Under the pieces are notes generated by a model. The model saw only the letters and a program-made list of their open reading frames with translations, had not been told where the DNA came from and searched no databases. A stretch of 33,502 bases of DNA from Planctomycetaceae bacterium (lineage in GTDB: Bacteria; Planctomycetota; Planctomycetia; Planctomycetales; Planctomycetaceae), in assembly GCA_947476295.1 (NCBI GenBank), contig CANJQC010000053.1, positions 1 to 33,502 of the forward strand. Reading direction: 5' to 3'. This document shows positions 30,179 to 33,502 of the stretch, piece by piece; within the stretch, counting starts at the first letter, position 1, and each line of letters begins with the position of its first letter. The translations under genes were made by a program, and so were the position numbers.

Positions 30179-33158
30179 GCTCGGATCAGCGAACTCCGCA
30201 GCGCGAGTTCCCTGCAGCTTAAAGTGAGCAAAGAGGGCCAGTCGGCCGATGTCTGGGTGCGGGCCCCTGGCCTGGTGCGATGGGAAGAGTTACCGCAGCG
30301 ATATCAGATTGCGGCAGGCTCGCGATTGTGGAAGATTGATGAAGCGGAAAACACCGCTTTGGAATTGGATTCTCCGTAGTTCCTTGGACCGCAACAGCAG
30401 ATCGATCTGATCGGGTTGCTGGATATGGGCGTGTCCGATGCGTCGAGACTGCTCGACGCCCGACTTGTGGAACAAGCCACGCGCGATGGGCGTGACTGTC
30501 TGGTGTATCGAGTGGCTTTGCCGACCGGAAAGGGCAACTTGGAAATAGAAGCGTCAGCCGATGCAAAAAGCCTGCAACTGGTAGAAATCTTAGCATGGAA
30601 ATCGGGAACCAAACGCACAGGTCCTCCGCTGGCGGAAATGCGACTGGTGTCGATGAATGTGCAGATTGCTGACGAAAAATTTGCTGTGACAAAATCACTG
30701 ACGGAAGACGGGCGTATCGGCAAGATCAGCGAGGCTCAGGGAATTGTTGTACTGCGACCGATGCTGGCAAAACGGTGGACTCCGATCTGTCGTGAGACGC
30801 TGCTTCGTCCGGGTGACTGAATTCGCACAGAATTGCGTGGGGCGAATGCGGTCGAAGTCACACTGTCGTCGGACGCGGAATTAACGCCTGGGCCAGGAAC
30901 GCTGCTCGAATGCATTTCACCCGTCGAGGCACGGTTGCATACAGGCACAGTTCAAACGATGTCTCCGAAGCAGAGAATATCGTTGACGAGTCGTGGAGAT
31001 TCTCCTTGCTGGGCCCACGCACGGAAAAACGATTTGTCGATATTGGCAAGACACTTCTGGTGCGAGTGGACCGCGACAAAAAACTGGTCGATGTCGCTCA
31101 GGCGCCGCCGTGGTTAGCTGGCTTTGAGGGCACGTCGAATAACGAATCACTGGGTTCATTGATCGGGACTCTGCCCGACGGTCGCAACGAGCCACTGACG
31201 GTCGGCTATCACAAGGTGAGTGTCGAAATTCGCGACCAGATTGCTCGTACGACGATCGAAGAATCGTTCGTCAATCACACGCCCGGACGACTGGAAGGCG
31301 TATTCCATTCTCCGCTGCCTCAGGATGCGTTTATTAGCGGTTTTGGCATGTGGATCGGCAACGATCTGATTGAAGCCGACGTCGTGGAGAAGCAGCGGGC
31401 TCGTGAAATCTACGAAACCATTCTTCGTGAGAAACGCGATCTAGGGCTGCTCGACTGGACTGGCGGCAACATTTTTAAGGCTCGCGTGTTTCCAATTGAA
31501 GCGCGGTCGGAAAAGCGAATCAAGATTGTGTACACGCAGGTATTGCCTCTGCGGGCTAACCGGTACCGGTACTCGTATGGTTTGCGAAGTGAGTTGCTGC
31601 GGACAACGCCGTTGCGGGAATTGTCGCTGACGATCACGGTCAATTCGGCACTGGCGCTGAAGAGCGTGACGTGCCCGACACATATGGCGCAGATCGTGAA
31701 CGCTTCGGTGTGCAGCGCCGGTTTGAGATGCGCGGCGGCGCACGATACTTTGCCGATGGTCGCGACAATGTCAACTTTGAATTGTTGCAACAGCAAATAA
31801 AACAAGCGGGCGACTGGCGATTAGGAATGCGGCAATAGATTCTGAACAATCTTGCCGGGTTGGGCCGCGATGCCGCTGTCCTTCAGCAGCAGGTGCAGAG
31901 CCTTGATGAGCTGAGGAGATTTTCGCTTTCGCGGGGCGCTAATCCTGTGTCCGGTTCGCGCAGCGCCGGCGGTCGCCTTGGCGAAGACTATTTCTTCATG
32001 AACGACGGTGTCTCATTGACTGCCAGATTCGGGGGTGGAGGTGGCAGAGGCTTTGGACTGAATGGGCCTGAACTGAATGGTTCTCTGCGTGACATCGACG
32101 GCGACGAACAACTCGTCACAGAGCTTGCCTCGCGCATCAAATCAGACAGCCGAGAGAGTTTCAGGCAACGCGATAAATCCGGCGAATCAGATCGGAAAGA
32201 CGCGCTGGAAGAATTTGCGGCCGATGACGAACTGCTGGTCGGGCTCCAAGAGACCGAAGGATCAATGGAACAATGGCAGAGGCGCGACTCGGAATTCAAA
32301 TCCTTCGACATCAACCTCTAAATGGGCGATATTTTTGATGTGAGTAAGGCGAAGAAAAACACCAGCGGAGGTTTGAGTGCCGCGATTGGCGGAAGGCGGA
32401 ACGAGTACTACGAAGGCGGCTACGGATATCCCCAGCCGGACTACATATTCTGGATCAATTCGCTGTTTCCCGTGCTCAGCCCTCCGCACGAGCCCATTGA
32501 GCCTCCAGCGGATCCGGAAGGCTGGTCGCCGGAAGCGATTGCTTTGGCGAAGAGCTTATTGCGGATCGAATCGCTGCAGGCTCGGGATGGCGGCATCGAC
32601 ATGCTCCGCGACACAGAGCAACTGCACCCTCGCTGGAACCGTTCTTCCGGTCGCAGCATTGATCAGGTCCTGTATTCTCCGACGGCATGGCTCACGCAAG
32701 GAAAAAATATCGGAGAGCAGACGCTCATGAATTACTGCGATGCGAACGAACGCATCGTCTATTCAAGGGCATTCCGTCTGGGCAGACGCCGTGCTTCAGT
32801 GGCGAGTGAACTCAGATCGCCGCCGTTGAGTCTGAACGATTTCTCACTGTCGCCGTTGCAACACGTGTACGCCAACTGGAACGTCGCAATTGAACGAGCA
32901 GGAGAGAATCAGGTCCGGTTGAATCTGACGATGAAAGACACAACGAACGTCGCACGCTTCACAATTGACACAGCTCGACATGTGCTGCTGAAACACGAAG
33001 TTATGAACGACGGCAAGGTCACGAATACAACGTCCTTTGACAACTTCGTCGAACTGGCAGACACCTGATGGGCTCGCAGAATTGTTCTGATCAATGATCA
33101 GGGGCAGGTGCTTTCTGATACGCAACTGAACCTTCAAGCCCTGACGAAGGATGAGTAA
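30179..33158 (+). pseudogene. decayed FecR/VIT domain protein gene
   Basis: Remains of one large exported-type planctomycete protein spread over several frames. The first frame (from about 30179) encodes a lipoprotein-carrier-like region (VSKEGQSADVWVRAPG...AGSRLWKIDEAENTALE) and then a FecR-like domain (ETLLRPGD-stop-IRTELRGANAVEVTLSS...LTPGPGTLLE). A frame change between about 30950 and 30990 leads into a VIT domain (EPLTVGYHKVSVEIRD, GRLEGVFHSPLPQDAFISGFGMWIG, EKQRAREIYETILREK). Another change near 31690 gives a Gln/Gly-rich part, and the von Willebrand A domain expected after VIT is absent. The C-terminal part is 32322-33158. In-frame stops interrupt it at 30377 (TAG), 30818 (TGA), 31836 (TAG), 32319 (TAA) and 33066 (TGA); the last frame closes at 33156 with TAA. 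No intact start was found. Confidence 0.8.
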
Positions 33159-33303
33159 GCTCAACGGTTGCAGCAACGAATGGCACTGTCGTGATCCGTC
33201 CAGCGCGCAACCTGATCTATAGGCGAACGGGAATTTTTAATAAACCGCCGTTCTTCGGAGTTGGTATTGATTGAAACGCCCGCTCCTGGCGATGATATGG
33301 AAG

Positions 33304-33346
33304 CCCTCCTTGGTTGACTTCTCACGGAAAACCAAGGAGGGTTTTT
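33304..33346 (+). promoter_or_regulatory. terminator-like hairpin that pairs with the ribosome binding site of the methyltransferase gene
   Basis: A perfect 12-base stem, CCCTCCTTGGTT (33304-33315) with AACCAAGGAGGG (33330-33341), has a 14-base loop and is followed by TTTTT. It has the shape of a rho-independent terminator. Its 3' arm also contains AAGGAGG, the ribosome binding site six to seven bases before the ATG at 33348, and its 5' arm is an anti-Shine-Dalgarno sequence. When folded it would both stop transcription and hide the start. Confidence 0.7.
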
Positions 33347-33347
33347 C

Positions 33348-33502
33348 ATGCGCCAGCCAGTACCCTTTCCTTCGGCATTGTTGCCAGCGGACGCAGTGGG
33401 CCGCGACTGTGCGACTGAAAGGCCGCGCGCATTAGAAATTGGTTGCGCAACGGGTGAATACCTTGTTCGATTGCAGGAAGCCGGATGGAATGCGACAGGA
33501 AT
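33348..33502 (+). CDS. class I SAM-dependent methyltransferase, N-terminal fragment cut by window edge
   Basis: The 51 complete codons from ATG at 33348 encode MRQPVPFPSALLPADAV, a short charged stretch, then RALEIGCATGEYLVRLQE. The LEIGCATG segment is motif I of the S-adenosylmethionine-binding Rossmann fold and is followed, at the usual distance, by AGWNATG leading to the second strand. The start is supported by a near-perfect AAGGAGG at the right spacing. The substrate cannot be inferred from this fragment. A hairpin overlapping its ribosome binding site suggests control of expression at the leader. Confidence 0.8.
   Translation, partial: MRQPVPFPSALLPADAVGRDCATERPRALEIGCATGEYLVRLQEAGWNATG

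Follow-up and report, generated by a model that had tools for sequence, protein, structure and literature searches.

A hairpin predicted to bury the Shine-Dalgarno in the leader of planctomycete IS4-family transposases, and its probable remnant before a methyltransferase fragment

The hairpin that directly precedes a methyltransferase-like frame at the end of the window (the whole 33,502-nucleotide stretch analysed, which is contig 53 of a genome of 5.99 Mb in 252 contigs) very probably belongs to the transposase leader of an insertion sequence of the IS4 family (NCBIfam transpos_IS4_1), with the Shine-Dalgarno sequence buried in its stem. The locus, earlier read as a switch that regulates a gene, is thereby reinterpreted as the remnant of a mobile element.

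The hairpin and its insertion sequence

By direct reading, the 5' arm CCCTCCTTGGTT (33304-33315, + strand) and the 3' arm AACCAAGGAGGG (33330-33341, +) pair perfectly over 12 bp around a loop of 14 nt, and both arms are supported by folding and covariation as well. TTTTTC follows (33342-33347, +), which is at once a U-tract and the 6-nt spacer between the Shine-Dalgarno and the start codon ATG (33348-33350). The geometry claimed by an earlier, sequence-only reading of this DNA was thus confirmed, and so was its claim that the 5' arm is an anti-Shine-Dalgarno: CCCTCCTT matches, as its reverse complement and without a mismatch, the Shine-Dalgarno AAGGAGGG (33334-33341), which is part of the 3' arm.

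RNA folding of 33290-33362 gave -29.5 kcal/mol (z -4.27), a stability reached by none of 200 dinucleotide shuffles. The window has two perfect inverted repeats of at least 12 bp with a loop of 3-20 nt (the hairpin at 33304 and a 13-bp one at 1444), and when the full window was shuffled 60 times with its dinucleotide composition preserved, four such repeats turned up altogether, in three of the shuffles. Given its conservation with compensatory change in relatives (see below), the hairpin is well beyond chance. The other perfect repeat (1444-1480, 13 bp) has a short loop. An Rfam search of bases 32000-33502 revealed no family at its gathering score, the sole match being on the opposite strand (E 0.79) with 18.7 bits, where the family requires 55, and gave no sign of a ligand or temperature sensor at the hairpin.

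This part of the window is read as the left end of an IS4-family element because homologous copies extend into a transposase and carry terminal repeats. The whole remnant, delimited by homology, spans 186 bp (33177-33362, +) and comprises the left end, the leader and five transposase codons. It begins with the left terminal repeat CGAATGGCACTGTC (33177-33190, +), a 14-mer that stands at both ends of complete copies, and it closes with the transposase frame remnant ATG CGC CAG CCA GTA (MRQPV; 33348-33362, +), recognised by shared codons: they are identical in loci L002 and L003, while L035/L004 has MRQPLSDSDESGKPEF. A query of 33200-33502 matched two further places in the window's genome, one with 82% identity along 33205-33362 and the other with 81% along 33203-33362, and the element is present in six of the 59 genomes searched, i.e., the window's own and five more of the same genus.

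Where copies reach far enough, a frame that mostly starts with MRQ comes next. In the longest close copy (L004/L035) it runs for 385 codons to the contig end and matches DDE_Tnp_1 (E 5.8e-16; 59.3 bits, cut-off 23) and NF033592 (199.8 bits, cut-off 115), so that an IS4-type DDE transposase is identified through this frame; the window keeps only five codons. The complete element measures 1635 bp in one many-copy planctomycete genome (L040-L052), where all 13 copies carry CGAATGGCACTGTC at both ends as terminal inverted repeats and 10 of the 13 are flanked by a perfect 9-bp target-site duplication. Several further loci also carry the repeat in both orientations, and the window has the left end only, without the right end.

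The 9-bp targets of these 13 copies are REP-like palindromes (exactly GGTCWGACC on at least one side in nine of the 13), many same-genus copies adjoin GGTGTCAGGAAC-like repeats, and the element seems to target REP sequences. A frame on the minus strand of L002 (730-1212), near GGTGTCAG-like repeats, resembles, by eye, REP-associated tyrosine transposases.

The methyltransferase fragment and its junction

The remnant runs into a class I methyltransferase gene of which only an internal piece is present (P0001; 33354-33502, +; orthologues L016-L025), which is in frame with the transposase start and is cut by the contig end, and the exact left limit of which lies within 33354-33363. From 33348 the frame holds 51 complete codons before the contig end, and its match to Methyltransf_23 (E 0.0037; 17.5 bits) is below the Pfam cut-off of 27. 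The best eleven matches outside the window's genome, from the same genus, are open frames of 372-402 residues, except for L022 with 288. The methyltransferase motif stands 152-192 residues after the preceding stop in 10 same-genus orthologues versus 39 residues in the window (a looser motif allowed 10 of the 11 to be read, L026 being the one in which it was not located; a strict QPVP pattern was found in four of the 11). By this comparison, the window frame is without roughly 130-160 N-terminal residues of its orthologues. QPVP is internal, shortly before the motif, in six of the 10 (L016, L018, L019, L020, L022 and L024), varies in three (QPV in L021, QPLP in L023 and QLVP in L017) and has no counterpart in L025. 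With such a longer N-terminal part in the orthologues and an internal QPVP in six of them, the methyltransferase "start" of the sequence-only reading turns out to be a product of the junction.

The junction lies where the transposase codons CAG CCA GTA coincide with the QPV of the methyltransferase; its exact point within this shared stretch is inferred. The neighbouring frame (32322-33065) found no match in 17 other genomes of the genus at E 1e-10, so that synteny is uninformative about the fusion. Deletion after insertion would be the simplest cause. The arrangement is not that of a mobile attenuator upstream of an intact cellular gene, because the methyltransferase frame is without its N-terminal portion.

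The junction could instead be an assembly error with no fusion in the cell, which we regard as possible but somewhat doubtful and which would leave the identity of the hairpin unaffected. Such an error would fit a junction that is 140 bases from a contig end in a 252-contig assembly, several same-genus copies whose contigs in related assemblies likewise end inside the element (L005, L009, L010 and L013), and a remaining methyltransferase part that was not found elsewhere in the window's genome (other matches to the orthologue query: residues 160-327, at most 35% identity). On the other hand, the common stretch CAGCCAGTA, itself an estimate, is with 9 nt short for an assembler misjoin in our judgement, and a second remnant, L003, is likewise in frame with a decayed gene, of DUF1553, the orthologues of which have no comparable shared stretch.

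This second solo left end (L003:1646-1984, in the window's genome) consists of the hairpin, the start and ~13 codons, in frame with a part of the DUF1553 gene, after which comes a truncated DUF1501 frame. The DUF1553 gene has one match in each of 18 genomes of the genus, and the broken copy at L003 is the only one in the window's genome. A shorter leader remnant in a same-genus genome (L006:1480-1560) stands upstream of a frame that resembles, by eye, a different methyltransferase.

Conservation of the hairpin and predicted burial of the Shine-Dalgarno

The hairpin stands directly before the ATG in all 26 loci that retain the transposase N-terminus, from 29 related loci found; the other three (L057, L060 and L063) match without that N-terminus. 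Independent cases are fewer than 26, because a single genome contributes 14 of these loci (L061 and 13 copies that are nearly identical). When 19 distinct copies are aligned, 99.5% of the cells in the outer 11 pairs are standard pairs and three pairs show two-sided change, while with 27 distinct copies 99.0% of the outer-stem cells pair and two-sided compensatory change is seen in four pairs (13 cells); under either alignment, none of 500 shuffles reached the covariation score. The covariation is real but uneven, since a single pair supplies 10 of these 13 cells, and the copies share a common ancestry. Thus the conservation and covariation once sought upstream of methyltransferase genes do exist for the stem, but upstream of transposase genes. 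The leader has the conserved stable stem holding the Shine-Dalgarno, with compensatory change, that marks leaders of the IS200 and ISPpu9 kind.

When 397 genomes of the class were scanned with a covariance model of the 19 copies, 19 genomes had matches. From its 44 match rows 20 loci were inspected (rows from the window's genome, opposite-strand repeats and further same-genome copies were omitted): a transposase lies downstream in 13 (four of them in the training set), and in 11 of these 13 the terminal repeat GAATGGCAC is found 123-138 nt upstream of the hairpin. The seven loci without a transposase are also without the terminal repeat, and their hairpins seem to be unrelated.

Further upstream, a second and weaker stem is predicted (33257-33290 in the window; alignment columns 100-105 with 152-158); it shows some two-sided changes and several broken cells, and overlaps the promoter predicted below. 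An attenuator in which the 5' arm would pair alternatively with a CCAAGG-like segment upstream of it was set aside, because the weaker second stem would compete with the 12-bp stem.

With the leaders anchored on the hairpin, a candidate element promoter (TTGATT, 18 nt, GATGAT; eight of 12 consensus bases) was placed at 33267-33296 (+), with a predicted transcript start at ~33301-33303, the foot of the stem. The candidate is weak by consensus, and a promoter consensus scan listed none at 33267-33296. The best -10-like hexamer begins 9-13 nt before the 5' arm in 18 of 25 leaders (a count made without a shuffled control), and AAG or ATG immediately precedes the arm in 14 of the 25. If the predicted start is right, the element's own mRNA would begin at the foot of the stem, and the lock should then extend to native transcripts.

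Alternatively, native transcripts might start inside the stem and be without the 5' arm, so that only read-through RNA is locked and the hairpin serves for protection of the IS10 type. We consider this rather unlikely. It is reportedly the logic of IS10, and the start-site prediction may be several bases off; however, the predicted start of 33301-33303 precedes the arm, the Shine-Dalgarno became mostly free in folding of 5'-shortened RNAs only with a 5' end at ~33310 or later, and the AAG or ATG just before the arm in those 14 leaders would suit a start there.

Burial of the Shine-Dalgarno was compared between 26 transposase starts (including the window, L002 and L003) and 45 control starts, the latter taken from the same loci and preceded by a Shine-Dalgarno-like motif, but being mechanical ORF starts rather than verified genes. 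The Shine-Dalgarno was paired with a probability above 0.95 in 24 of the 26 but only four of the 45 (Fisher p 1e-12), and a stem of at least 8 pairs covered it in 23 of the 26 versus seven of the 45 (Fisher p 1e-9). The measurement left out copies of L041 (L040, L042-L052 and L061), L004, L008 and L011 (contigs of L035, L054 and L062, respectively), the decayed frames L007 and L012, the same-genome copies L081-L089 and loci found later.

A profile search with the transposase covered 392 genomes of the phylum, of which 17 had matches, often much more diverged ones. Among these divergent relatives, L064 and L065 keep both the stem and the T-run; the U-tract is absent in L066, L067, L069, L071 (Shine-Dalgarno pairing 0.80), L072, L079 and L080, which keep a stem over a Shine-Dalgarno-like stretch; and L068 has a weak fold only, with no clear stem and a Shine-Dalgarno pairing of 0.69. 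Six divergent leaders stood outside the folding comparison, i.e., L075, with an uncertain start, and L070, L073, L074, L076 and L077, the N-terminus of which was partial or not placed. Thus it is burial of the Shine-Dalgarno that seems to be conserved more widely, and the terminator shape seems to be a trait of the closer group, because distant relatives lose the U-tract yet most of them bury the Shine-Dalgarno. Outside Planctomycetota, the same lock was not evident in 10 IS4-family relatives from plasmid records, for which the annotated starts are uncertain: pairing of positions -16..-5 exceeds 0.8 in two of the 10, and the stem of L123 reaches its ATG.

The anti-Shine-Dalgarno lock of the sequence-only reading is therefore supported by conservation and covariation, but as a lock of the transposase and not of the methyltransferase. 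Its alternative, that an earlier gene upstream left its terminator, which then took on the role of ribosome binding site, is not supported: hairpin, ribosome binding site and ATG occur together as a transposase leader, and distant members lock without a U-tract.

A different terminator reading, namely a pure intrinsic terminator which blocks transcription into the element and which overlaps the Shine-Dalgarno only incidentally, is very unlikely in our estimate. A G+C-rich stem followed by TTTTTC does have the shape of an intrinsic terminator, 16 of the 19 close copies have T5C or T6C after the 12-bp stem, and PMC2965389 describes insertion sequences with 5' terminators; yet the seven distant members named above keep the stem over the Shine-Dalgarno with no U-tract, and L053, L055 and L056 have the full stem despite an interrupted or short U-tract. 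A simple terminator consensus scan listed no site at the hairpin, which carries little weight since the maximum loop of the scan is 8 and the loop here has 14 nt.

Finally, a regulated leader that evolved for the methyltransferase itself (a riboswitch, a protein-operated lock or a thermosensor) is scarcely credible even with a frame that runs from the same ATG into the methyltransferase domain, for the same leader stands before transposases elsewhere, orthologous methyltransferases have a longer N-terminal part, and Rfam offers only the weak match on the other strand.

A possible double restraint and known systems

From the sequence, family, conservation, covariation and predicted pairing described above, we infer a block of translation, termination, a promoter position and a biological purpose as follows. 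The 3' arm would act as the transposase Shine-Dalgarno and ribosomes should fail to bind it, because the 5' arm is its complement. In close relatives the U-tract spacer before the AUG would also provide an intrinsic-terminator shape, and one hairpin would thus throttle the transposase twice: transcripts would be stopped at the U-tract, and the ribosome binding site would be hidden in those that pass. Transposase expression from read-through transcripts would thereby be kept very low, and native transcripts would be locked too if the predicted start at the foot of the stem is right. In the window, the left 186 bp alone would have survived, joined in frame to the N-terminally truncated methyltransferase frame.

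A wider proposal is speculative, and we think it unlikely: a two-way lock at the 5' end may silence the element's own transcripts across the planctomycete IS4 clade, transposition may need a factor that opens the stem (an antisense RNA, a protein or a shift of the start site), and solo left ends may be portable modules of lock, ribosome binding site and start that fuse in frame to host genes (the methyltransferase here and DUF1553 at L003). The leader is short and self-contained, and a few reporter constructs could therefore separate the terminator, the translation lock and the escape by start site. Such compact self-restraint of a transposase, with compensatory changes, comes from a phylum, Planctomycetota, for which no description of it was found in open-licence literature by title or the start of the abstract.

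Among known systems, work on IS10/Tn10 attributed to Davis et al. in 1985 reportedly found protection from external promoters, with the transposase start sequestered in read-through RNA. IS10 has a DDE transposase, as the present element does, but the native IS10 transcript is without the upstream arm, whereas the predicted native transcript here keeps it. The transposase of IS200, on the other hand, is of a class different from the IS4-family DDE type.

A close likeness is that to ISPpu9 of Pseudomonas putida, an insertion sequence in REP sequences: PMC8450116 proposes that the ribosome binding site of its transposase is hidden within the 5'-UTR, and a weakened fold raised a reporter 26-fold in that study. 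ISPpu9 differs in its long 5'-UTR, for which the antisense RNA Asr9 is the proposed opener (PMC8450116), whereas here a single short hairpin with a U-tract stands at the predicted 5' end. In IS200 of Salmonella, as given in a portion of PMC3196728, one stem-loop terminates impinging transcripts and another occludes the ribosome binding site; the two functions resemble those proposed here, but they belong to two separate stem-loops, whereas both shapes are present in one hairpin in our element. "Mobile attenuators", in the passages of PMC2965389 considered, include terminators that precede transposases at the 5' side and others, derived from insertion sequences, that precede unrelated genes of the cell, and these passages do not mention locking of the Shine-Dalgarno. 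The cellular cases are ascribed to 3' terminators of insertion sequences, whereas in the window a gene fragment continues in frame from a 5' leader that brings its own ribosome binding site and start codon. PMC2266710, which surveys the IS4 family across genomes, does not use the words "ribosome", "stem-loop" or "Planctomycetes" in the portion considered. The present leader is thus a known regulatory idea in a compact and well conserved form, in which terminator shape, Shine-Dalgarno, anti-Shine-Dalgarno and spacer are united in one hairpin.
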